24,775 bases of DNA, from the IMG/VR virus record IMGVR_UViG_3300005782_000026, positions 1 through 24,775 of that record; one strand, given 5' to 3'. The DNA is from a virus. Every line of letters starts with the position of its first letter. Position 1 is the stretch's first letter. A model generated the notes under the pieces. It ran no database searches. It had not been told where the DNA came from and saw only the letters and a program-made list of their open reading frames with translations. This document shows positions 1-22,297 of this stretch, in pieces. Position numbers and translations under genes: made by a program.

Positions 1-1692
1 GATATTAATATCGGAATAAACTTCAGCATCGATCCCTGTCATGTCGCCAGTTCTCACTACATCAATGATACCTGTTGCGGTCACTTGAGCAGTCGCCGAA
101 TAACCTATGTCAAGAGATACACCTTCAGCAGTCTGAGTAAATATCCCTGTGACTCCGGTTACATTTGCATCAGATTCAATAGTCCCCGTAGTAAAATCAC
201 CGTTAACATCAACACCACCAGTAAAACCAGCAAATGTTAAATTATCAGAAGTATTGATCGTTACAGTTCCCTGATCATTATCGCTTGCGATAAATGTGAT
301 TTGACCGGATGTTCCGCTGTTTGCACCCGTACTCATTGTAGAGGCAGCTACTACCGTTGCGTCGGAAGCAATCGTATTCCCTGTCAATGCGCCAACCACA
401 TCGGCATCGCCAGAAACGGTAAGATTATCACCAATCCCCACTTCTGAATTTGAATGTCCAATATCGACAGGACTGCCATCTGTACCAGTATTAATATCGA
501 TTCCGTTGGTTGTATTTGTGTTGTCCATAGTGAAAGTCGAAGTTGCATTAAAATCAAATGCAGTTCCATCGGCTGTAATTGTTCCGTCTATATCGGTATT
601 GTCCAGATTTGCTACAAGCTCAACGGCGAGATCACCAGTAACGCTTAGATTATCATTAACGGTTGTTTCTGAAGTTGTATGTCCGATAGATATTGGGCTC
701 CCACTTGTAACCGCATTTATCACAACACCATTACTTGTATTGGTATTATCAATTGTAACCGTAGTGGTGCTATTTACATCAAATGTAGTTCCGTCTGCGG
801 CGAATGTTCCATCTATATCTGTATTGTCAAGATTAGATGTCCCATCAACATACAAATCTAAAACAACGCCAAGTCCGCCGTCTGTCTGAATTGACCCAAC
901 CGTTGGACTGGTTGAATTGGTTGCATTAGAGATATCAATAGGATAGGCGGATGAATATTCTCCCTGTGCATCAGAAAGGGGGATATAAAAAGCAGTCGTA
1001 TTTACCAGAACTCTCAATGTATTATCGTACCATACATTGCCAGTCAAATCGTTTATATCGTCGAAATGGAAAATATAACCGTAATCCTCCCAATCAGCGG
1101 CAGCCGTAGTGTTACCCCAAAGCCCTGTCCGCATAAAAGCCATAGGTCTTGTGGTTGGGCTGGTAAGCGAGGAAAAATTTTCCGGCGCTTCAATCTCCAA
1201 ATCTATCGCATAATAAGCTCCGCCGCTGGGCGTTCTTGCCGGTAAATTTAACTCAGCACAAATCGCCGCAGCCATTCCGCCGCCAGCATCGCCAGTTGAT
1301 CCGGTACTATAATCGACACGTCCAACAATGCCATTGACCCACGATCCGGTTTGAACATCTGCAATAACTTTAGAATAAAAACCCTCTGAAATCGCACCTG
1401 CACCGGTTTGAGTTAAAGTAACGGTTGCTCCCACCTCAGTACCCGAAGTATTATCATTTGTTTGAACAACGGTGAACAAATCTTCGCTCGCATCATAAAG
1501 AACATAATTACCAGCAGTAGCGCCCCAGAATTTTACATCAGCACCGTTCGCACTTTCGCCGGTAACAAACCCCTGTTCCAATATAACATCGTTCCAAAAA
1601 TAAACAGGAACTTGAAATATCTGTTGTGCTGATATTGTTATGGGTAACAATACAGCTAACAACAGCATAATAAATAAACTATTTCTTCGCAT
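1..1692 (-). CDS. Repetitive fibre/appendage-like protein with signal peptide, C-terminus cut by window edge
   Basis: The frame is open from an ATG at 1692 to base 1 (564 codons, no stop), so the 3' end lies outside the window. An SD (GGAGGT) sits 7 nt before the ATG, which overlaps the end of the preceding gene by 14 nt. The first 24 residues look like a signal peptide: basic MRRN, a hydrophobic core (LFIMLLLAVLLPIT) and an ISA-QQ cleavage site. The rest is rich in T, S, G, D and N with almost no Lys or Cys, typical of beta-structured phage fibres. Two copies of a 75-residue unit starting NLDNTDIDGT lie back to back (period 225 nt, copies near 611-836 and 386-611). Position behind the capsid genes suggests a virion appendage or head fibre. 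A signal peptide is odd for a virion protein assembled in the cytoplasm; an exported adhesin-like product is the alternative. The family is not recognised with certainty. Confidence 0.8.
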   Translation of the reverse strand, partial: MRRNSLFIMLLLAVLLPITISAQQIFQVPVYFWNDVILEQGFVTGESANGADVKFWGATAGNYVLYDASEDLFTVVQTNDNTSGTEVGATVTLTQTGAGAISEGFYSKVIADVQTGSWVNGIVGRVDYSTGSTGDAGGGMAAAICAELNLPARTPSGGAYYAIDLEIEAPENFSSLTSPTTRPMAFMRTGLWGNTTAAADWEDYGYIFHFDDINDLTGNVWYDNTLRVLVNTTAFYIPLSDAQGEYSSAYPIDISNATNSTSPTVGSIQTDGGLGVVLDLYVDGTSNLDNTDIDGTFAADGTTFDVNSTTTVTIDNTNTSNGVVINAVTSGSPISIGHTTSETTVNDNLSVTGDLAVELVANLDNTDIDGTITADGTAFDFNATSTFTMDNTNTTNGIDINTGTDGSPVDIGHSNSEVGIGDNLTVSGDADVVGALTGNTIASDATVVAASTMSTGANSGTSGQITFIASDNDQGTVTINTSDNLTFAGFTGGVDVNGDFTTGTIESDANVTGVTGIFTQTAEGVSLDIGYSATAQVTATGIIDVVRTGDMTGIDAEVYSDINI

Positions 1693-7153: not shown

Positions 7154-8475
7154 AAATCCTCCTGCATCAATCCAGCGGTTTCAAATGACTCGCTCCGCTT
7201 TCTATGCCTCTCAATATCAACCGTTTTTCTCATAGTGATATCGCCTACTGGCTTAAAGACTCTTGCGACTCCCCTTTCAAAAGCTTCCACTGCATGATCG
7301 TCTGCGCTCTTCAAATTCTCCCACGTAAGAGACTCCATCTCAGCAATCAGATTCGGGCAATTCTCTGATATCTCGATTTTTTCATCATCCAATTTCTGGT
7401 AAGCAAGCGGGTACCTGACTTCAAATTGAACCGGATTCTGTGATAAGATTATGCCATATTCGGACTTGAAATAATCAGCCGGGGTCGTCCCATCTTTTTC
7501 ATGCTGAAAAGCTCTGGGACAGGCAATAGTCTTTTTTATCAGACCCTCTATTCCCCACTTAGCACGGGTAGCCTTTACGGCCTGTCCGGCCTCATCCGGC
7601 TTACATCCTTTCTTGTAAAACTCATCGATGATCCTTAATATTCCATCTGATCCCATCCATCCCCACAACCAGACCATAGCGTTGGCATCAGAAAGACCGT
7701 AATCTTGAAACTCCCAATAAGTCCCAGGACGGCAAAGTTCCGTCTGTACTTGTTGTAAATTATCTTTTGAATACGAATGGATATGGACTCTTCTATTAAA
7801 GTTTGAGTAGAGCAATCCTTCATATCCTTCATGCTTCCCATTTAAAAACCTCGCCACCATTTGAGGCGGCCAGTTCTTTTCTTTTTCTTCATAATAATTC
7901 TCAGGCAGATTCGCTTTATTCCATCGAGGCAGGGGCTGAAAATATCTGTAAATAGAATTGCTCTGCGGTGAAATAAACTTTTGCCAGCACCAATTATGAC
8001 CCGCTGGATTAGCAGTCCCGAATCCTTTTAGCTCAATATTAGTTAATTTCAACCGACCCTCTAAAGTGTTCCAAACCTCAGCACTCCACATTTCCTCCAT
8101 CTGTTCAATCCAAAACCATCCCAGATTATAATTATTTAACTGCAAAACTCTACCAACTCGATCCATTCCACGCCAATAAATAGTAGACCCATTAGGTAAC
8201 TTATGTACGTGTTCACTCGATCTATAATACTGCTCCCAGGAAGGTAAAAAATCGTGGAACTGTTTCAGAGTCGTATCTCTATTATCACCCCAAGTCTTTC
8301 GCAAAACCATCCCTACATTTTTAGAAATCTTACTCAATCGATTCGCAAGTATTATAGCAGCTAATGTTTTGCCGTTTCCATACTCCCCAAAGAAGCCCCC
8401 GTACTTCCACGGGTCTACTGCAAAAGCATATTGCTCTTCGCATAAATCAATTTTTATTTCTTGCGGAACATCCAA
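7150..8475 (-). CDS. terL: Terminase large subunit
   Basis: A 441-aa ATPase/nuclease that packages DNA into the prohead. Walker A is GEYGNGKT (residues 30-37). The Walker B region is NLGWFWIEQMEE (117-128), with E124 a likely catalytic Glu. A coupling-type TANP motif lies at 154-157. The nuclease half has FQDYG (D258), IIDEF (D284) and a C-terminal DDHAVEAFERG (D392/D393), the expected metal-binding acids. The start must be TTG at 8475: an in-frame TAA lies two codons upstream and no other start precedes Walker A. It overlaps the small terminase by 29 nt, suggesting translational coupling. Confidence 0.95.
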   Translation of the reverse strand: MDVPQEIKIDLCEEQYAFAVDPWKYGGFFGEYGNGKTLAAIILANRLSKISKNVGMVLRKTWGDNRDTTLKQFHDFLPSWEQYYRSSEHVHKLPNGSTIYWRGMDRVGRVLQLNNYNLGWFWIEQMEEMWSAEVWNTLEGRLKLTNIELKGFGTANPAGHNWCWQKFISPQSNSIYRYFQPLPRWNKANLPENYYEEKEKNWPPQMVARFLNGKHEGYEGLLYSNFNRRVHIHSYSKDNLQQVQTELCRPGTYWEFQDYGLSDANAMVWLWGWMGSDGILRIIDEFYKKGCKPDEAGQAVKATRAKWGIEGLIKKTIACPRAFQHEKDGTTPADYFKSEYGIILSQNPVQFEVRYPLAYQKLDDEKIEISENCPNLIAEMESLTWENLKSADDHAVEAFERGVARVFKPVGDITMRKTVDIERHRKRSESFETAGLMQEDF

Positions 8476-8872
8476 TAATTACTACCCCATCTTCAAATTT
8501 ATGCTCAATTTCCTGCTTATCTGTCCATCCAAAATTCTTTAATGCAAAGATAGCACCCGCCGCATATCGACCATTTAGATTGTTCTCATAATGGCTTGCA
8601 ATAATCATTTTCGATCTTTTTATAGTGTAAGAAAATTCTTTCTTCTTTTCATAATCATAAAAAGATTGTCTTGACTCAAAACCACAGTAAAGACACAGCC
8701 CAGTAATAGTCATAGATTCATCTTTATTAAGCTGATTAAAATATTGCTCTATTTTTTTAATTAATTTTTCGGGGGTTTTATATTTAGGCGGCCTACCAGT
8801 AGAAGTTATACCCAATTTAAATAAATTTTTCTTTTTTTTCTTAGGTTTGCTTTTTTCCGAAGAAGCAGACAT
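8447..8872 (-). CDS. terS: Terminase small subunit (gp3-like DNA-packaging protein)
   Basis: A 141-aa DNA-recognition subunit of the packaging motor. A Lys-rich N-terminus (residues 8-15) is followed by a region typical of the gp3-type small terminases: TITGLCLYCGFESRQSFYDY, then a helical ring-forming segment and AAGAIFALKNFGWTDK. SD AAGGTG lies 4 nt before the ATG. It is the first gene after the strong promoter at 8905-8933 and overlaps the large subunit, as expected at the head of a packaging operon. Confidence 0.88.
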   Translation of the reverse strand: MSASSEKSKPKKKKKNLFKLGITSTGRPPKYKTPEKLIKKIEQYFNQLNKDESMTITGLCLYCGFESRQSFYDYEKKKEFSYTIKRSKMIIASHYENNLNGRYAAGAIFALKNFGWTDKQEIEHKFEDGVVIIGCSARNKN

Positions 8873-8904
8873 AATTCACCTTACATGAAACCATTCTACT
8901 CCAC

Positions 8905-8933
8905 AATATAGTAATTAAGTTTTGATATGTCAA
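8905..8933 (-). promoter_or_regulatory. Strong sigma-70-type promoter for the packaging/head operon
   Basis: On the minus strand, TTGACA (8933-8928), a 17-nt spacer and TATATT (8910-8905). This is a perfect -35 with a 5/6 -10 at ideal spacing, 33 nt before the small-terminase ATG. It divides the accessory/early region from the late genes. A weak hairpin (TTTGG/CCAAA, 8953-8968) lies just upstream and could end transcripts entering from the early side. Confidence 0.75.
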
Positions 8934-8977
8934 GAATTTTTTAAAATCAGTTTTTGGTATATTCCAAACTTTCTACC

Positions 8978-9199
8978 TCATTTTACATTCCCTTCCTTGA
9001 TTTCATTTCTATAAAACTTGATCCATGATTGTAATTGATGTTTATCCCCACCTACCAGATTGGTAGACTTAAATCTCTTCATAATTTCGTTTGTTTTTAA
9101 TCCCTCTCTTATTACATCAACAAAAAATCTTTTCCTTTGCTCTTTTTGAGCTTTTTTCAGATGATCAATTCTTTTGAATCTTCTTCCCCTTGCAATCAT
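8978..9199 (-). CDS. Small basic protein, unknown
   Basis: A 73-aa product rich in Lys and Arg. Residues about 22-45 (FFVDVIREGLKTNEIMKRF) could be a helix-turn-helix, and the C-terminal half (HQLQSWIKFYRNEI) is helical. It may bind DNA, but no family is recognised. Its ATG overlaps the stop of the upstream gene as ATGA (9196-9199). It is the last gene before the late promoter. Confidence 0.6.
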   Translation of the reverse strand: MIARGRRFKRIDHLKKAQKEQRKRFFVDVIREGLKTNEIMKRFKSTNLVGGDKHQLQSWIKFYRNEIKEGNVK

Positions 9200-9408: not shown

Positions 9409-10194
9409 TTATTCCTTGTCGATTAATATGTTTACTGCTTTTGGGATTGCCTCTATCCTTACTGTTTTTTCTCCTGGGATAGCATATTTAAACTCTGTAT
9501 TTCCCAAAGCAGTTATGATTAATTCCTTGTCCCCACCACCCGAATTAAAATCAATCGATTCTGGATTAAACGTTTGCAATGTATCACATTGTCCCCCGAA
9601 ATAAACTTGCAAGCGACCAGTGGAACTAACCGTAATTCGATATGGGCTTGTGATAGTATTCAACAACATAATACTTATACTTGATCCTTGTGCTAACCAT
9701 CCCTGCCCATCTATTCCACTATGCCAACCGTCCACACTATTTCTAATATCCATAATGCGATATTCGGCGAACAGTAAACCTTCAGTAATAATGGTTGTAT
9801 CCGAGGGCGGTAAAGATGGAGAAACATCGCCTTCTCCATAAACTTTAACCCAAGCTGTATCGCTTGGTGCAGATTGAGCAGTTCTGTTTTTATACCTGGC
9901 CGTAACATAAAAACGTGTATCAAGTAATGCTTTTTCAATATAGGTCGAATCCTCTAAAGCAATCAATATCAGCCCAGTTGGTTGCGTCCATTTGTATAGA
10001 ATATATTCTACTTCTGATTTTATATTTTCTGTGTCAATGATGGTCAATATGTAATCTTTCCCATTTTCAATATTGTAGCTTGTTTCCTCTGCCTTTACTC
10101 GTCTGAAAAGAAGTAGCAACATAACAAAAAGAATAGCAATTATTAATAAAACATTAAACAAATTCTTTGCAGAAACTCTTTTAAAATTATTCAT
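9409..10194 (-). CDS. Membrane-anchored/exported protein with Fn3-like region, paralogue of 12986-13735
   Basis: A 261-aa product. Residues about 14-33 form one strong hydrophobic segment (LFNVLLIIAILFVMLLLLF) after a basic start, so it is an N-terminal anchor or uncleaved signal. The remainder should be outside the membrane. Residues about 35-120 look like a fibronectin-III/Ig-type fold ending in 'SDTAWVKVYG', followed by a Pro/Ser linker and a second beta domain with 'RLQVYFGGQCD' and 'ITALGNTEFKY'. The same order and motifs recur in the protein at 12986-13735. SD AGGAGGT is in place; the start overlaps the RHH gene by 8 nt. Function is unknown; a surface protein altering the infected cell (for example exclusion of other phages) is inference. 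Confidence 0.72.
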   Translation of the reverse strand: MNNFKRVSAKNLFNVLLIIAILFVMLLLLFRRVKAEETSYNIENGKDYILTIIDTENIKSEVEYILYKWTQPTGLILIALEDSTYIEKALLDTRFYVTARYKNRTAQSAPSDTAWVKVYGEGDVSPSLPPSDTTIITEGLLFAEYRIMDIRNSVDGWHSGIDGQGWLAQGSSISIMLLNTITSPYRITVSSTGRLQVYFGGQCDTLQTFNPESIDFNSGGGDKELIITALGNTEFKYAIPGEKTVRIEAIPKAVNILIDKE

Positions 10195-10417
10195 TTTCTA
10201 CCTCCTCATGTTCTGGATTAAGGGGCATTTGTTCTATATCATCACCCCATGTATTTATACATCTTGTTTGTTCATTTATTTTATCTCTACGCATTTGAAA
10301 ATCTAATGCACATTCTAAATATGACGTAAACGTCTGCTCTGTTTGTAGGCAATAATCCCTAATTAATTTAATTTTCTGTTGAGGCAATCTAACGTCTATT
10401 CGTTTTCGTGTGCACAT
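10187..10417 (-). CDS. Ribbon-helix-helix-like small protein
   Basis: A 76-aa product starting MCTRKRIDVRLPQQ. A short beta strand (RIDVRL) followed by two helices (QQKIKLIRDYCLQ and FTSYLECALDFQM) is the ribbon-helix-helix layout of Arc/MetJ-type regulators, with an acidic C-terminal tail (EHEEVENE). It may regulate the exported protein it overlaps. Start choice is uncertain: a TTG at 10429 adds four residues, and AAGG sits too close to that TTG and rather far from the ATG. A near-repeat TGTACACA/TGTGCACA covers the start and could be an operator. Confidence 0.6.
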   Translation of the reverse strand: MCTRKRIDVRLPQQKIKLIRDYCLQTEQTFTSYLECALDFQMRRDKINEQTRCINTWGDDIEQMPLNPEHEEVENE

Positions 10418-10498
10418 TTGTGTGTACAAGCCTTATATTTAATAATTATAAACATCTGTTATTATTGATCTGATTTTCTTAAACATGTTATCATCTTG

Positions 10499-10984
10499 TT
10501 ATCTTGATTTTTTGCCTCTCAACTTATTCTGTAATTTTTCTATTTTTAATTCAATATCCTGTACTTCGTTGTCATGTCTTAATTTACTGTGCTTTTTTCG
10601 ATTTTCAATATTTTCTGCTATTAATTCGCTTATTTTCTTGTTCCACATCCATTCCATATATTTTTTAATTTCCGCGCCATATTTGCTAAGACATTCTGGA
10701 CATACTTCAATCTTTTTGTGAATCTCAATATGCTGAAGTTTTATACTGTCTTTAATATACCCATATTGCATAGGCATCCATTGACCCATATTGTCAAAAT
10801 ATGAACTTTCAACTTCTCTGCGTTCTTGGATTGTTTTCCCACAAATATAGCACTCTGTTTCGTACAAAACCGTTTCAGGCATTTGATACACTTGAGCTAT
10901 ACTCGGCAAAAAACAAGATAACAAAATGATGAACACGGATGCCCACACCCACCGGCCAATGCTACTACGTTTCAAATTCTTCAC
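10499..10984 (-). CDS. Exported protein with CxxC...CxxC metal site and C-terminal coiled coil
   Basis: A 161-aa product with a GTG start and AAAGGA SD. Residues 1-30 form a signal peptide: basic KNLKRSSIGRW, a hydrophobic core, then SIA-QV; an LLSC stretch could alternatively be a poor lipobox. C45/C48 (CYIC) and C95/C98 (CPEC) would bind zinc or form disulphides. Residues about 105-155 are a charged coiled coil (ELIAENIENRKKHSKL, ELKIEKLQNKL). A zinc-ribbon pair on an exported protein is uncommon. It lies next to the other exported protein of this region. Function unknown. Confidence 0.68.
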   Translation of the reverse strand: MKNLKRSSIGRWVWASVFIILLSCFLPSIAQVYQMPETVLYETECYICGKTIQERREVESSYFDNMGQWMPMQYGYIKDSIKLQHIEIHKKIEVCPECLSKYGAEIKKYMEWMWNKKISELIAENIENRKKHSKLRHDNEVQDIELKIEKLQNKLRGKKSR

Positions 10985-11027
10985 AATCTTATTCCTTTCG
11001 TTTATTCGTTAAAATCTATCTTCTCCG

Positions 11028-11048
11028 CCTGCACCGGTTATTATAACC
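11028..11048. repeat. 21-bp repeat, copy 1 (non-coding)
   Basis: These 21 bases recur exactly at 11667-11687, and the match extends to 24 bases with one mismatch. The core GGTTATAATAACC is a palindrome on the minus strand. Copy 1 lies just past the stop of the Cys-rich gene. Confidence 0.8.
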
Positions 11049-11050
11049 CG

Positions 11051-11332
11051 TTATATGCTTTCGTGATTAACGCAACCATAATTTTCGCCTGTTATTAATT
11101 CTGCTCGATATTCACTACCATCGACAACGCATGCTCCTGTTATTTCTGGTCGTTGATAGAATAGCAATTTAGGGCTTTTACATCGTCTTACCTTGTGCCC
11201 AAATAAAGAGACTGCTTCATCTTCTGTCTCACATTGTTCGTAATCATCGCCTGGTTTGTATGGGAAAATAATTCTGTCATACTCATCTTGTTCATTTAGT
11301 AACCAATGTTTGCAGGTTTTGCAAGTTTTCAT
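11051..11332 (-). CDS. Small Cys-rich, probably zinc-binding phage protein
   Basis: A 93-aa product starting MKTCKTCKHWL. Start 11332 has AAGGAG 7 nt upstream; an in-frame ATG at 11374 has no such site and lies inside the attC-like hairpin. Five conserved-looking Cys (CKTC, C near 35, RRCKSPK, CVVDGSE, YGCVNH) fit the short zinc-binding proteins common in phage accessory regions. Function unknown. It is the last member of the cassette-like run, and its stop sits in GCATATAAC, the complement of the GTTATATGC at the start of its own segment. Confidence 0.65.
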   Translation of the reverse strand: MKTCKTCKHWLLNEQDEYDRIIFPYKPGDDYEQCETEDEAVSLFGHKVRRCKSPKLLFYQRPEITGACVVDGSEYRAELITGENYGCVNHESI

Positions 11333-11354
11333 TTTTTTCTCCTTATGTAATTCC

Positions 11355-11414
11355 GCATATAACAAAGTATTCAAGCCGATGCAAAAAGCGCACGGCTTAA
11401 TACAACCGTTAGCC
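11355..11414 (-). other. attC-like recombination site (element C)
   Basis: Sixty bases between the Lar-like and Cys-rich genes. In the gene direction it reads GGCTAAC ... GTTATATGC, close to the RYYYAAC...GTTRRRY ends of integron attC sites. The inner stem pairs GTATT with AATAC, AAGCCG with CGGCTT and TGC with GCA. Two bases stay unpaired on one side (C11372 and A11379), like attC extrahelical bases, with an AAAAA loop. The stop codon TAA of the upstream gene lies inside GGCTAAC, as is common in gene cassettes. There is no U-tract, so it is not an intrinsic terminator. Confidence 0.6.
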
Positions 11415-11741
11415 TGGCCTTGTATTCCATAATTTTATTAATTCTTCATCTGTTTTCCATGTACCCAATAAAGAACATCCACAATTACATTTAATTACAG
11501 GGTCGGTTGAACCTTGTCCAGATTGTTCTCTTGATATACTTAATTTATTATTATCACAAAATGGACAGGCTAACAATTGCGTCAACTCTGACGCCTTTGT
11601 CTGTGCGTTATTTTCGTCTTGTGCCATTTCTAAAGTCCTTTTAATTATTAAATTCCTGATACACCACCTGCACCGGTTATTATAACCGTCTTCTCCCAAC
11701 ATAACATCTAATATCTTTTTTTTAAATTTAGAATCTTTCAC
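11409..11741 (-). CDS. Lar-like restriction-alleviation zinc protein
   Basis: A 110-aa product from a GTG with GGAGG upstream. The C-terminal 55 residues match the Lar family layout: LLACPFCDNNKL, then VIKCNCG, then the closing LWNTRPG. Lar proteins of Rac-type prophages relieve type I restriction, so an anti-restriction role is plausible. The N-terminal 38 residues (with GYNNRCRWC) are not part of that family. An internal ATG at about 11627 with AAGGA upstream would give a 72-aa protein of normal Lar length. The repeat at 11667-11687 lies in the N-terminal part. Its stop codon lies within the attC-like element downstream. Confidence 0.68.
   Translation of the reverse strand: MKDSKFKKKILDVMLGEDGYNNRCRWCIRNLIIKRTLEMAQDENNAQTKASELTQLLACPFCDNNKLSISREQSGQGSTDPVIKCNCGCSLLGTWKTDEELIKLWNTRPG
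11667..11687. repeat. 21-bp repeat, copy 2 (coding)
   Basis: An exact copy of 11028-11048, here encoding GYNNRCR within the N-terminal extension of the Lar-like protein. The two copies are 639 bp apart in the same orientation and bracket one cassette-like unit. Confidence 0.8.
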
Positions 11742-11812
11742 AACCCACCTCCAACTTTTAATTTCCGTTCACCAGTTACGGCCATTCTCAACCTCACATC
11801 GTCCCGCCAATG

Positions 11813-11909
11813 GCTCCGCTGACCAGCCCAGAAGCCAGCCAACAAACCCCTGCAGCGTAATGTCGGGCATTCAGCCCGCCATACGCTGAGGGCAGCTATT
11901 ATGCGGAGC
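11813..11909 (-). other. GC-rich attC-like hairpin (element D)
   Basis: The 11742-11929 interval has no gene but is markedly more GC-rich than its surroundings. It folds as a long imperfect hairpin: GCTCCGC (11813) with GCGGAGC (11903), CCCT with AGGG, CAGCGTA with TACGCTG, and CGGGC with GCCCG around an ATTCA loop. G11852 is a single unpaired base between CCCT and CAGCGTA, again an attC-like feature. The conserved GTT/AAC ends are poor, so this would be a decayed or divergent member of the set. Confidence 0.42.
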
Positions 11910-11929
11910 TACTTTATTCATTAACAAAT

Positions 11930-12085
11930 CTACCGCCCTACCCATTTTTTAAGATGGTAAAATATTGCTGACCCTATCCAATTTCTTGCCTCTTCCATTT
12001 CTTCTAAATCCATTTTAGACCATAAAAATAAATCAATAATTCCTCCGACAATTAATATCATTATTATAGCTATTTCCCAATTCAT
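11930..12085 (-). CDS. 51-aa single-pass membrane peptide
   Basis: The product starts MNWEIAIIMILIVGGIIDLF and ends YHLKKWVGR. AAGGAGGATGGGAT gives a strong SD before the ATG at 12085. Residues 4-21 form one transmembrane helix, followed by an acidic then basic helix. It is shorter than 60 codons but well supported by its start site and its place between two attC-like elements. Function unknown. Confidence 0.62.
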   Translation of the reverse strand: MNWEIAIIMILIVGGIIDLFLWSKMDLEEMEEARNWIGSAIFYHLKKWVGR

Positions 12086-12153
12086 ATCCCATCCTCCTTA
12101 AATTTAAAATTTCATTCACAATCTAAATCCCTTCACACAGACCAACCGCTCCA

Positions 12154-12272
12154 CATAACGTCCGGCGTCACACCACCCACATAACCCACACGTCCACACG
12201 GAATCAAAAAAGTCAACACCAAAATCCACAACACCACATCCCTTTTGACTTTTTCGATCCGGTGACGTTAGC
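12154..12272 (-). other. Long attC-like recombination site (element A)
   Basis: About 119 bases at the 3' end of the DUF2695-like gene. Outer arms: TAACGTC/GACGTTA with CGG/CCG, a 2-nt bulge between. Inner arms: 12199-12216 against 12245-12261, 16 pairs around one unpaired A and one mismatch. In the gene direction it opens with GCTAAC and closes with GTTATG, the attC order. The coding region runs into the element and stops inside it, giving the gene an atypical Gly/Cys/Trp tail. Confidence 0.52.
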
Positions 12273-12521
12273 AATATTAAATAATATTTCACAGTCACAG
12301 TACCCCCCATTTTCCTCAAAGTATTGCAACGTTTTTTTAGTATTCACTTTGGGGAAATGTTTTTTCAAAATTGCAGTGGCAAATGATTTGTCTGTTCTGC
12401 CCTTACAATTCCAGATCGTTTCGCCCTTCTCGTTTTTCCTAAAATTACACCCTTCCTCCCCTTCGAGTAATTGACAAAATTTGTCGAAGTTAGGGTGTTT
12501 AGTATTCATAATTTCCTTCAT
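12213..12521 (-). CDS. DUF2695-like small protein
   Basis: A 102-aa product. 'FDKFCQLLEGEEGCNFRKNE... TLQYFEENGGYCDCEILFNI' follows the DUF2695 pattern, whose hallmark is the C-terminal GGyCDCEVl-N motif. The role of the family is unknown; it occurs in bacterial accessory regions. The last 15 residues (after NVTGSKK) are encoded by the attC-like element and are probably not part of the domain. AAAGGA precedes the first ATG; a second ATG four codons later also has AAGGA. Confidence 0.65.
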   Translation of the reverse strand: MKEIMNTKHPNFDKFCQLLEGEEGCNFRKNEKGETIWNCKGRTDKSFATAILKKHFPKVNTKKTLQYFEENGGYCDCEILFNIANVTGSKKSKGMWCCGFWC

Positions 12522-12600
12522 CGCTTTAATCCTTTCTATTTCGTTAATTTCTCACGGCGGCAAAACACCCGCTTCCAAAAGCCCACACAGCCACCCTGAG

Positions 12601-12660
12601 TAACCAAGTATCGCACGGGATGCAAAAAGATGCACCCGTGAATACCACCGTTCTTGGCTG
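12601..12660 (-). other. attC-like recombination site (element B)
   Basis: Sixty bases between the 82-aa gene and the DUF2695-like gene. Pairs: CCAAG/CTTGG, GTAT/ATAC, CACGGG/CCCGTG and TGCA/TGCA around an A-rich loop, with A12620 unpaired. It aligns base for base with element C in the unpaired and loop positions (TAAC.AAGTAT, GATGCAAAAAG, AATAC.ACCGTT). The stem bases differ but still pair. The 12522-12666 interval is otherwise non-coding. Confidence 0.58.
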
Positions 12661-12666
12661 GCGTAT

Positions 12667-12915
12667 TCATTTGGGTGAATCTTCATCCCTAACCCCAATA
12701 ACAATACGTCCTTTATCCGTTACATAGTATATAAAACCTTCAATCCATGACAAATCATGTTTAGTCATCATTTCATGCTTTACTAAATTCTCACAAGCGT
12801 CAAAATCATCTGATCCCTCTCCAGTATTATAATGATTCCTGGTTTCAGTATCGCTTCGATCTAAACCGAGAGAATGCTTAATTATGCTTACTTCGTGATC
12901 ATTCGGAACGTACAT
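12667..12915 (-). CDS. Hypothetical 82-aa protein, first cassette-like gene
   Basis: A neutral to acidic soluble protein (MYVPNDHEVSIIKHSLG... FIYYVTDKGRIVIGVRDED). AAAGGAGGTAGGGATT gives a strong SD. 'HNYN/HYNTGEGSDDFDACENLVKHEMM' may form a helical domain with two His and a Cys, but no family is recognised. It is followed directly by attC-like element B. Confidence 0.6.
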   Translation of the reverse strand: MYVPNDHEVSIIKHSLGLDRSDTETRNHYNTGEGSDDFDACENLVKHEMMTKHDLSWIEGFIYYVTDKGRIVIGVRDEDSPK

Positions 12916-12985
12916 AATCCCTACCTCCTTTATTTTAACTAATCTTAATATATCTCCAGCAGCTATTCATTCTTATTCTATCACC

Positions 12986-13735
12986 TCACTGAACCCAGAT
13001 ACTTGCAGGTGGGTATAATTCAACACTTGGCTCAACTTTGGTTATTCTCAAAATCCAATCTTCTTCACCATAGCGGAATTGAGTTCTTTCAATAGCCAAG
13101 ATGTGTAAAAGTCTTTCTCCTGCGTCTAAATTAAATTCCTGAACCACTGGCTGAAAGCGATTATCGTTAAACAAATTATAAGATTCTGCACCAAAAGATA
13201 AATCAATCTCACCTACAAAATAAATCTCTACCCGATAAACACCTCCGATAACTGAGAAACTTTTTGAAACAAAGTTAAGCGGGTCAAGAGTGCCTATGCC
13301 ATCTACTTGTTGTAAATTGCCTGTCCAATCAAGCATTGCAAAAACTCTGAACTGTACAGGGATATCCTCTGTCTCTGGTGGTATTGTCTCGCCTGTCATT
13401 TTCACATATACGGTATCGGAATTGCTTGATTTGTTGTTGTTTTGGTCAACTGATTGCACCCAATATGAGGCATCTTGAACGCAGACATATGGATTGCTCA
13501 AAGTATCTTGGACTTGGATTTCAGTAACTCCATTTTCCGTATATTCTGATACAATAAACTCAATTACTTCCTCATAAGGGATAAGCTCGCCGTCTTTTTC
13601 GTAGGCATTTAACCAGTAGATATGATAAGTTTCCCCTTGCTGTTTTTGAAAAGTTTGTGCATCAAGTTGTTTAGCAAAAGCAATCAATGCAATGGTTGCT
13701 CCTAACCAGACTAAAAATCTAATTATCTTTTTCAT
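12986..13735 (-). CDS. Exported protein with Fn3-like region, paralogue of 9409-10194
   Basis: A 249-aa product. Residues 1-26 are a signal peptide (MKKIIRFLVWLGATIALIAF, then cleavage near LDA-QT). Residues about 27-112 form an Fn3/Ig-like domain ending 'NSDTVYVKMTGE', then a Pro-rich linker and a second beta domain with 'YRVEIYFVGEID' and 'LLHILAIERTQFRYG'. This order and the closing motifs match the protein at 9409-10194 (SDTAWVKVYG, RLQVYFGGQCD, ITALGNTEFKY), but here the anchor is a cleavable signal. The ATG overlaps the upstream stop as ATGA with AAGGGG upstream. Function is unknown; host-envelope modification is inference. Confidence 0.7.
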   Translation of the reverse strand: MKKIIRFLVWLGATIALIAFAKQLDAQTFQKQQGETYHIYWLNAYEKDGELIPYEEVIEFIVSEYTENGVTEIQVQDTLSNPYVCVQDASYWVQSVDQNNNKSSNSDTVYVKMTGETIPPETEDIPVQFRVFAMLDWTGNLQQVDGIGTLDPLNFVSKSFSVIGGVYRVEIYFVGEIDLSFGAESYNLFNDNRFQPVVQEFNLDAGERLLHILAIERTQFRYGEEDWILRITKVEPSVELYPPASIWVQ

Positions 13736-13919
13736 TTTGTGTTCCCCTTCTGTTGTTTGGTGTCAATCAACCCCTCGCTAATAAAATCTTTCTCAATCTT
13801 CTGTCTTATGGCATGATCAATGACATCGTTTATATAAATATCCCCGCATTGAAATGTTGACTCTGCCGCACATAACGCTACGTATTCACCATTATAACTT
13901 TTCTAATTCTCATTGCCAT
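13732..13919 (-). pseudogene. Frameshifted small gene (or -1 frameshift gene)
   Basis: From an ATG at 13919 with AGGAGG upstream the frame reads MAMRIRK... and stops at TAG after 13 codons. The -1 frame, free of a start codon, carries on as YNGEYVALCAAESTFQCGD... to a TGA at 13732 that overlaps the next gene's ATG (ATGA). The coupled stop and sensible protein sequence suggest both parts were one gene of about 61 aa. The switch point falls near AGAAAAG, so either a one-base insertion broke it, or there is programmed -1 slippage, or a sequencing error. Confidence 0.45.
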
Positions 13920-13939
13920 TCTCCCGATCCTCCTGTTAA

Positions 13940-14113
13940 TCAACCCGTTTTTATAATTTTTATGAGTTCGTTTAACTGCTCTTTTGTTGGTTTTTTAAGT
14001 TTTCCACGCCAATTGCATTCCGTACACTCCCATATATATTTTAATTCTTTTCGAGTAGGGTCATCAACAAATGGTGGAGTAATCGTACCTTTACATTTCG
14101 GGCATACTCTCAT
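13940..14113 (-). CDS. 57-aa zinc-ribbon protein
   Basis: The product starts MRVCPKCKGTITPP and has CPKC (C4, C7) and CTEC (C30, C33), a four-Cys zinc ribbon, followed by WRGKLKKPTKEQLNEL. AAAGGAG lies upstream of the ATG. It is short but clear. Such ribbons may bind nucleic acid or act as adaptors; function unknown. Confidence 0.68.
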   Translation of the reverse strand: MRVCPKCKGTITPPFVDDPTRKELKYIWECTECNWRGKLKKPTKEQLNELIKIIKTG

Positions 14114-14144
14114 TTCTCTTTCTCTCCTTTCTCAAACAAAGTAG

Positions 14145-14166
14145 TGGGTGGGTTTTATACCACCCA
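14145..14166 (-). other. Intercistronic hairpin
   Basis: UGGGUGG pairs with CCACCCA over 7 bp around an 8-nt loop in the minus-strand RNA, just past the stop at 14170. The sequence after it (CUACUUUGUUUGAG) is only moderately U-rich, so termination would be weak; RNA processing or stability is as likely. Confidence 0.35.
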
Positions 14167-14169
14167 TAT

Positions 14170-14310
14170 TCATTTTGCCTTATTCGCAATAAGCGAAGAT
14201 GACACTGTTCCCAATAATCGGTTGAGCACATCCAAATACTGAATGTTTGGACTTTGGGCTTTCAATTGCTCACCAATCTTGGTGACGAGAGCTTTTTTCA
14301 ACTCTTCCAT
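14170..14310 (-). CDS. 46-aa helical protein, unknown
   Basis: The product starts MEELKKALVTKIGEQL and ends SLIANKAK. Start 14310 is chosen because AAGGAGGTATACA precedes it. The same frame reaches a GTG at 14397 with GGAGAGGGG upstream, which would add a hydrophobic 29-residue N-terminus (TILPVFFVRPIICWAV), so a membrane-anchored longer form is possible. No family recognised. Confidence 0.5.
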   Translation of the reverse strand: MEELKKALVTKIGEQLKAQSPNIQYLDVLNRLLGTVSSSLIANKAK

Positions 14311-14424
14311 TGTATACCTCCTTGTTTTAACTGCCCAACATATTATTGGTCTGACAAAAAACACGGGCAGTATTGTGTTAATTGTCCACTTCTTCACTTC
14401 CCCTCTCCTTTCTCTTGTTTGGTG

Positions 14425-14622
14425 TTAAAATTCTACCCAATTTATAAAACATGAATCTAAAGCCTCTACCGATAAATATCCTTTGTCATATTTACATTCT
14501 ACACATCGAGCAGTATCACCGTCATATCCAAGCCCGTCCTCGTCTGATGCTGTAAATATTTCAACTTCATCCCCACACTTAGGACAATTATCCCCTGGCC
14601 ACAATCTCCACTTTTTCTCCAT
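14425..14622 (-). CDS. 65-aa zinc-ribbon protein
   Basis: The product contains CPKCGDEVEIFTA (C13, C16) and CVECKYDKGY (C40, C43), a CxxC...CxxC ribbon with an acidic loop between (SDEDGLGYDGD). AGGAGGGATTGGTAGA precedes the ATG. It resembles the small 'Zn ribbon, restriction-alleviation-like' proteins of phage early operons but lacks the closing WN-R motif of Lar. Function unknown. Confidence 0.62.
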   Translation of the reverse strand: MEKKWRLWPGDNCPKCGDEVEIFTASDEDGLGYDGDTARCVECKYDKGYLSVEALDSCFINWVEF

Positions 14623-20624: not shown

Positions 20625-20960
20625 TTACGGTATATCTGCTACTGCTTTCCTAATTCCTACTATGCCAAGTACACCGCATAAGCTGTATATGATTTCAATA
20701 TCAATTGGCAATGTCATACCCAGACCATTTACAATCGATATCACAGCAACCAAACCGGCGGCGACATAAGTTTTCCATCCTTTGTTTCCTGATATTTTCT
20801 GAATAGCGGTACGGAAGAATCCCAAGCCCAGACCAGCCAAAACACCGAATACAGCTTCAGGAATCATCTTACCTGTCAAGACAGGAATAAGTACCAGACC
20901 CAAAAACAAAACAGCGATGATATAGGTTTTCTTTCCTTTTAAAAATTCGATGATATTCAT
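20625..20960 (-). CDS. Holin-like membrane protein, copy A
   Basis: A 111-aa product starting MNIIEFLKGKKTYIIAVLFL. It has three or four hydrophobic segments (about residues 12-30, 34-53, 70-90 and 92-105) separated by a conserved loop 'AIQKISGNKGWK'. It is clearly homologous to copy B at 21941-22297 (shared FLxGKKxYxIAxLF, LVLIPVLTG, AIQKxSGNKGW, LGIVGxRKAV). Placement after the endolysin suggests a holin-type role. Start 20960 has AAGGAG, and the longer frame to 21053 is an artefact of the adjoining gene remnant. Confidence 0.7.
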   Translation of the reverse strand: MNIIEFLKGKKTYIIAVLFLGLVLIPVLTGKMIPEAVFGVLAGLGLGFFRTAIQKISGNKGWKTYVAAGLVAVISIVNGLGMTLPIDIEIIYSLCGVLGIVGIRKAVADIP

Positions 20961-20961
20961 C

Positions 20962-21111
20962 TCAATTCTCCTTTCTGAAATGATTAATAATTTCACCGAT
21001 CCACTCGATGATAGTTTTAAAAATGATTTCCCATGATACTTTCCCCTCGCCATTAACTAATTTTTTTATACCATGACCAGCACCTACACCAGTAAAAGCA
21101 TATCCAATCCC
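20962..21111 (-). pseudogene. 3' remnant of the 22300-22707 gene
   Basis: The frame from about 21111 to a TGA at 20962 reads IGYAFTGVGAGHGIKKLVNG... and ends NHFRKEN. The intact gene reads IGYAFAGVGAAHGTKKLING... and ends NYFRKEN. Homology stops abruptly just after the shared AAAGCATATCCAATCCC, and no start codon or SD precedes it. It therefore is the tail of a duplicated gene, kept together with the holin-like copy A whose SD lies in its last codons. Confidence 0.8.
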
Positions 21112-21383: not shown

Positions 21384-21554
21384 TTATAAAAACTCAGCCA
21401 TAATTTCATCTGCTGTTTCCTCTACAAAATTATCCGGCTGAAAAGTTGTTTCATCTGCCAGCCACTTGTCCACAAGAACGGAAATATCAAACTCTTCACT
21501 GACTTCGATACAGACGTGCATAATATTTGTTTTTTTATCTTTTGTGTGTGCCAT
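21384..21554 (-). CDS. 56-aa acidic protein with structured leader
   Basis: The product starts MAHTKDKKTNIMHVCIEVSE and is acidic in its C-terminal half (ADETTFQPDNFVEETADEIM). Start 21554 has GGGGAGGTTATA upstream. The frame extends to 21602 but that part is the hairpin region. It is the first gene of a two-gene insert between the two lysis-module copies, with its own promoter (21712-21740). It has the look of a phage moron: foreign position and independent transcription. Function unknown. Confidence 0.58.
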   Translation of the reverse strand: MAHTKDKKTNIMHVCIEVSEEFDISVLVDKWLADETTFQPDNFVEETADEIMAEFL

Positions 21555-21579
21555 TATAACCTCCCCTGTAAATAAACCA

Positions 21580-21649
21580 AGGGCAACCGCAATGGGAATC
21601 ACCCATTAAAATTAGGCACAAGGGGATGCCTGAAAGGATCGGTTGCCCT
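21580..21649 (-). ncRNA. Three-way-junction RNA structure in the leader
   Basis: In the minus-strand RNA a closing stem AGGGCAACCG (21649-21640)/CGGUUGCCCU (21589-21580) of 10 bp encloses two hairpins: AGGCA/UGCCU with an 8-nt loop and AAUGGG/CCCAUU with a 5-nt loop. It ends 13 nt before the GGGGAGG SD of the 56-aa gene and starts about 55 nt after the expected transcription start. It does not match tRNA, tmRNA or a riboswitch class I can name. A cis-regulator is likely; a DNA hairpin for recombination is the alternative. Confidence 0.5.
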
Positions 21650-21711
21650 CGTAAATTAGTTATAATGTTTTTTGTGGATTTCACTTAATCCCCTTGAATT
21701 TGATTGACTAC

Positions 21712-21940: not shown

Positions 21941-22297
21941 TTATTTCATGTACGGCACTAAATCGCCTACCGCTTTTCTGGCTCCTACAATGCCGAGAAC
22001 GACACTCCCGCCGTATATCATTTCCAATATTTGAGGGGAAATAACTAAACCTACGCTGGTTGATACGGTTATGCCGACAACAACGACAACTGCTGCATAA
22101 CTTCGCCAGCCTTTATTGCCGGAGAGCTTTTGAATAGCTAACCGAATAAATCCGAACCCAATCGCACCAGCAACCGCAAATACTTTTTCTGGAACGATCT
22201 CGCCGGTCAAAACAGGAATTAGAACAAGTACCGCGAACAACAACGCAATGAGATAAGCTTTCTTTCCATTTAAAAATTCTTTGATTTTTTCAAACAT
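21941..22297 (-). CDS. Holin-like membrane protein, copy B
   Basis: A 118-aa product starting MFEKIKEFLNGKKAYLIALL. Hydrophobic segments lie at about residues 14-33, 38-55, 68-88 and 92-108, with the loop AIQKLSGNKGWRSY and a C-terminal ARKAVGDLVPYMK. AAGGAG is in place, formed by the last codons of the upstream gene. It is homologous to copy A but not to a named holin family. Its place in the lysis cassette makes holin the best guess. Confidence 0.7.
   Translation of the reverse strand: MFEKIKEFLNGKKAYLIALLFAVLVLIPVLTGEIVPEKVFAVAGAIGFGFIRLAIQKLSGNKGWRSYAAVVVVVGITVSTSVGLVISPQILEMIYGGSVVLGIVGARKAVGDLVPYMK

Follow-up and report, generated by a model that had tools for sequence, protein, structure and literature searches.

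Why a tailed phage should carry genes for several exported proteins between its replication and terminase genes, and what those proteins do in the infected cell, are the questions raised by this locus. The phage is known from environmental DNA alone, and the window analyzed here is the whole 24,775-base virus record, in which nearly all recognized genes lie on the minus strand. The reading order starts with a tail-fiber-like gene, followed by a lysis cluster (Rz-like, amidase, and holin-like genes) and a set of replication genes (exonuclease, SSB-like, resolvase-like, O-like initiator, and helicase loader). The region of interest comes next, and beyond it lie the small and large terminase, portal, head protease, scaffold-like, and major capsid genes. 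Three exported proteins, P0001, P0002, and P0003, take up 2,022 of the 5,774 nt (35%) from the helicase loader to the small terminase gene, a stretch that is "early" by map position only. A sequence-only reading had regarded so much envelope-directed coding as rare for a phage. Exported proteins are not unusual in this lineage, and a relative (L006/L009) encodes a membrane-anchored coiled-coil/FN3-like protein between its replication genes and terminase as well as several fiber-like proteins with signal peptides.

The explanation that we favor, with a probability of roughly 40%, combines duplicated envelope paralogues, cassettes exported from a leader, and exclusion of other phages. Its anatomical part is by far the firmest, and the sequence very probably describes an accessory region that is directed at the envelope and placed between replication and terminase genes, with the paralogues on either side of cassettes of integron type (Table 1). 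The evidence base consists of this window, two sister contigs (L003 and L004, the sole near-identical records), and one unrelated phage (L015); more distant relatives have the large terminase in common at 48-58%. Start codons of several small genes were picked by ribosome-site spacing. The coordinates, minus-strand placement, and reading frames first given for the exported proteins were all correct. Strong Shine-Dalgarno sites and signal peptides ending in AQ allowed no clear host assignment.

Table 1. Paralogues, leader block, cassettes, and hairpins, in coordinates of the window.
Feature	Coordinates	Strand	Description
P0001	9409..10194	-	261 aa; N-terminal membrane helix (predicted) and two domains shared with P0002; downstream edge of cassette run, start overlapping the preceding frame 10187-10429
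C3	10498..10922	-	Candidate cassette; mature part of P0003; inverted ends GTTATCTTG / CAAGATAAC
P0003	10499..10984	-	161 aa, GTG start; signal-like N-terminus from leader, mature part from cassette
Leader block	10920..11058	-	AAC box, 5' non-coding DNA, ribosome site, start codon, signal-peptide codons; ends at GTT crossover
C2	11050..11363	-	Candidate cassette; cysteine-rich 93-aa protein; ends GTTATATGC / GCATATAAC
S1	11357..11416	-	attC-like hairpin between C1 and C2; z -2.6 and -3.6
C1	11408..11574	-	Candidate cassette; Lar-like zinc-ribbon domain; ends GTTAGCCTG / CAGGCTAAC
S3	11837..11903	-	attC-like hairpin, R'' box poor; z -3.6 and -3.8
S4	12179..12273	-	attC-like hairpin at end of DUF2695 gene; z -4.5 and -3.4
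S2	12598..12656	-	attC-like hairpin after gene 12667-12915; z -3.7 and -2.4
P0002	12986..13735	-	249 aa; signal peptide (predicted) and two beta-rich domains; upstream edge of cassette run

The two larger exported proteins had been proposed as paralogues, and the alignments bear this out. BLASTP joins P0001 and P0002 at E 8e-11 (26% identity over 183 aa), and their mature parts score 124 against a mean of 32.5 and a maximum of 62 in 2,000 shuffles. Both domains contribute, with z 5.7 for domain 1 and z 12.8 for domain 2, values that none of the 2,000 shuffles reached in either case. A search of the whole record with P0001 returned P0001 itself and P0002 only, P0003 is unrelated to either, and a shuffle test found no mutual resemblance between domains 1 and 2 of one protein. 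On these scores P0001 and P0002 are true paralogues. The two-beta-domain layout originally described for them stands as homology over both domains, the beta content coming from strand-rich, low-confidence models. AlphaFold, given each paralogue aligned with the other (two sequences), reached a pLDDT of 44.6 and 40.8, and because these models are poor, the common fold that this check was meant to confirm is structurally unproven.

The export predictions for P0001, P0002, and P0003 draw on hydropathy and signal motifs only. P0002 begins with a typical cleavable signal (FAKQLDAQ↓TF), as first described. The anchor described for P0001 is likely, its helix reaching a maximum Kyte-Doolittle value of 3.21 over 19 residues, and a possible cleavage site (VKA↓EE) is present as well. 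Because positive charges flank the helix on both sides, a membrane-anchored topology with the domains outside is a likely but uncertain reading. The third exported protein of the original description, P0003, does have a signal-like N-terminus, and its two CxxC pairs (C45xxC48 and C95xxC98) fall in the mature part. No cassette ends or hairpins were seen at P0001 or P0002, and the paralogues therefore look like flanking phage genes, not cassettes.

By every protein search that we ran, P0001 and P0002 are an orphan family. Pfam, PHROGs, NCBIfam, PADLOC, and PDB held no convincing match to either protein, nor did isolated phages or plasmids, and a PDB search with both domain profiles gave nothing convincing. 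When IMG/VR was scanned with each protein alone and with a pair profile, only contigs of the same phage came back. GTDB genomes scanned with the pair profile and with a large-terminase profile gave nothing, in scans that rely on short exact peptides and that distant relatives can escape. No relative of the pair was found in the terminase relatives L005, L006, L010, and L011 (the last as an ORF list only). Assignment of the two proteins to unrelated families by profile search, the outcome named beforehand as refuting their kinship, did not occur; no family was assigned.

The fn3 profile matched neither paralogue up to E 1, nor anything elsewhere in the record. The membrane-anchored coiled-coil protein of the relative L009 (168-728), however, ends in an FN3-like domain (marginal fn3 and fibronectin matches), and P0002 domain 1 resembles it over 36 residues (E 0.013, z 4.1, 8 of 2,000 shuffles). 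Because of this likeness, an FN3-like reading of domain 1 is reasonable but unconfirmed. Resemblance to phage FN3/Ig-like domains is limited to this one comparison; P0001 has no such similarity to the L009 protein, and domain 2 of the paralogues has no detectable relative. A further protein, at 9108-9905 of L015, also looks FN3-like, has a signal or anchor, and sits just before the terminase region of that unrelated phage; it was rejected as a relative of the paralogues (z 0.7).

Between the paralogues, small genes of one orientation encode a DUF2695 protein, a 51-aa membrane protein, a protein with a Lar-like (restriction alleviation) domain, and a cysteine-rich protein. After the small genes come imperfect palindromes; as single strands these fold better than shuffled sequence (z -2.4 to -4.5), and S2 is 76% identical to S1 over 29 nt. 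The start of an integron cassette is a piece of an R' box, and its end is the complementary R'' box, which belongs to the cassette's own attC. Exact 9-nt inverted ends of the form GTT.../...AAC were searched for and delimit three consecutive cassettes, C1 to C3; at least three such pairs arose in 1 of 1,000 shuffles of the region. The ends of C3 form an inverted repeat of about 28 nt with one indel, and R'/R'' complementarity is weaker in the two cassettes upstream of the three. These attC-like hairpins and GTT/AAC ends lie between P0001 and P0002, in agreement with the earlier claim that the paralogues flank a cassette run. Because of the hairpins and the three consecutive pairs of cassette ends, the run is most likely an integrase-less cassette cluster of integron type. 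No integrase was recognized among the genes scanned, which cover part of the reading frames of a partial record. An attC scan requiring strict box complementarity missed sites of the S1 to S4 type and mostly returned other palindromes, and an Rfam search gave one match, sub-threshold and irrelevant.

Clusters of attC sites lacking an integrase (CALINs) occur in virulent phages (PMC9892861). The run resembles phage CALINs in its same-orientation small genes, each followed by an attC-like palindrome, with no integrase recognized (PMC9892861); at least two attC-like sites are present in the array (S1 to S4), as are complementary R'/R'' ends. It departs from them in two respects. Exported paralogues flank the array, and one of its junctions is a long non-palindromic block, carrying a start codon and a signal peptide, that is common to an unrelated phage.

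That block, the leader, occupies the place of an attC site, with the AAC end of one cassette before it and the GTT start of another after it (11050 / 10922 in the window), and encodes a signal peptide of 22 residues, MKNLK.SSIGRWVWASVFII.L. It shows no imperfect hairpin when folded as an attC (z +0.9 in the window, -0.1 in L015), and the phage and plasmid collections contain no real match to the block or to its peptide. A search with P0003 gave one match outside the same phage, confined to the first 22 residues. At the nucleotide level the leader is 88.7% identical to L015 over about 140-150 nt (alignment 10919-11065, E 1e-49), and beyond it this part of a 52.5-kb phage contig has nothing detectable in common with the window. 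The L015 counterpart likewise has an AAC box before the block and a GTT after it, at 8063. Identity ends at GTTA, the integron-type crossover, and the 5' non-coding DNA of the leader is conserved as well as the signal codons. What follows the block in L015 is a protein of 109 aa with its lipobox (LVAAC↓SS) in the new part. The mature parts of this protein and of P0003 are unalignable, and each is bounded by inverted repeats that differ in sequence between the phages (about 28 nt in the window versus 13 nt in L015). On this comparison P0003 is a mosaic of a shared leader and a cassette-bounded mature part.

The sister contig L004 matches the window at 99.95% identity over 10.5 kb and diverges just inside C3, past which it holds the end of a different, third gene with the same stop position. 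Our reading, drawn from two phages and the 85 nt at one contig end (L004), is that exported cassettes have been swapped behind a shared signal-peptide leader, probably by integron-like site-specific recombination. The inverted repeats of about 28 nt on both sides of the mature part of P0003 would also suit an invertible segment that brings about phase variation. This very improbable alternative would place the same sequence, inverted, beside the repeat; L004 has a different sequence there, not an inverted one, and the reading was rejected because the inverted frame hits a stop (TGA) within the repeat. The cassettes and paralogues may instead be passive cargo from a host integron, in which case the leader would mark only host genes of one family, with the 5' end conserved and the mature part evolving fast. 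If both phages had drawn on one host source, the presence of the block in each, unrelated as they are, would be explained. Non-coding DNA conserved to the same degree as signal codons, the sharp stop of identity at GTTA, and unalignable mature parts with end repeats that match within each phage yet differ between phages all argue against it, and we consider it unlikely.

Exchange behind the leader would have a simple consequence. The element has its own start codon and signal peptide, and therefore any cassette landing in frame behind it would be translated from the leader start codon and become a secreted or membrane protein. The Lar-like gene (11408-11741, minus strand) resembles this arrangement: its frame opens before the crossover at 11574 is reached, and the Lar-like domain begins exactly at that crossover. 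Its N-terminal residues are encoded by upstream DNA with a small hairpin (GCGTCA-GAGT-TGACGC), and the 5' region of the gene matches the leader block over 24 nt at 96%. A bolder and rather doubtful extension is that the leader is a mobile element in the attC position that traps cassettes for export by means of the ribosome site, start codon, and signal peptide that it carries, allowing phages to shuffle exported proteins beside a fixed paralogue pair.

Translation across cassette junctions has precedents. In gcuF1-blaOXA-28 an in-frame cassette fusion is read through the junction (PMC3375312), and ORF-11 of attI1 is an element upstream of the first cassette that aids translation (PMC8876359). 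As in both, translation of the cassette gene here appears to start in, or to be coupled to, DNA upstream of the crossover; the gcuF1-blaOXA-28 fusion, however, displaces a signal peptide, whereas the upstream element here would supply one. We found no description of a cassette-junction element supplying a signal peptide in openly licensed papers. CALINs, in-frame cassette fusion, and upstream translation aids are all known. The prevailing view is that integron cassettes are self-contained genes. If our reading is true, a leader from which one cassette after another receives a signal peptide is a recombination route to exported proteins and shows one way in which phages vary what enters the host envelope.

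In the scenario that we favor, gene duplication would have produced the paralogue pair, cassettes would have entered between the copies, and the exported products would have their site of action beyond the infected cell's cytoplasmic membrane. Their most probable action would be to keep other phages out through a blocked receptor or blocked DNA entry. From location only, we tentatively put forward superinfection exclusion as the likeliest role, short of even odds; receptor masking and adhesion have been proposed as further candidates, and the orphan paralogues could have quite different roles. The lipoprotein Llp of phage T5 is reported to cause superinfection exclusion by acting on FhuA (PMC9586334). 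Like Llp, the proteins here are predicted to be exported or membrane-attached and are encoded outside the structural module; unlike that small protein, the paralogues are larger and have two domains, and the likeness is one of description, not of sequence comparison. A role of the orphan pair in phage-phage competition is directly testable by expression once the host is known.

Two other roles bear on the same evidence. The paralogues may be virion or adhesion proteins that place glycan-binding Ig/FN3-like domains on the particle or cell surface, the hydrophobic N-terminus serving assembly or anchoring. Fiber-like proteins of this lineage also bear signal peptides, beside the capsid gene and in the tail-fiber region, and Ig-like phage proteins are described as adhesins (PMC13370021). 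The paralogue genes, however, are set apart from the structural genes and neighbor accessory cassettes, and an N-terminal export signal is ill-suited to cytoplasmic assembly; we consider this role improbable. Less probable still is a part for the exported proteins in lysis, or in altering the envelope to allow release, instead of in phage exclusion. Lysis modules typically include periplasmic proteins with a membrane anchor, and this phage has duplicated lysis-related membrane genes, but it also has a separate lysis cluster (Rz-like, amidase, holin-like) at 20.6-23.8 kb.

Several minor observations were made along the way. Fiber-like proteins with signal peptides lie at 1-1692 (-) of the window, at 16176-16916 of L006, and at 12132-14528, 11325-11771, and 10616-11323 (-) of L009. 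Their N-terminal signals include SAQ↓Q, AFAQ, and VFAQ, and in both phages one of these proteins is encoded next to the capsid gene. Apparent virion fibers would not be expected to bear signal peptides. In the lysis region, the holin-like membrane proteins at 20625-21053 and 21941-22297 (-) are paralogues and a remnant of the neighboring gene is also repeated (21000-21100), which indicates that a block of this region was duplicated; the relative L009 has a single holin-like copy (8769-9086). A strong palindrome (GGGCAAC...GTTGCCC) at 21554-21673, upstream of a small gene, may be an attC-like site or a terminator. Finally, TTRACACCAAACAASAGAA is repeated at 13727-13766 and 14389-14428, just upstream of two genes that include P0002, and is possibly a shared regulatory element.
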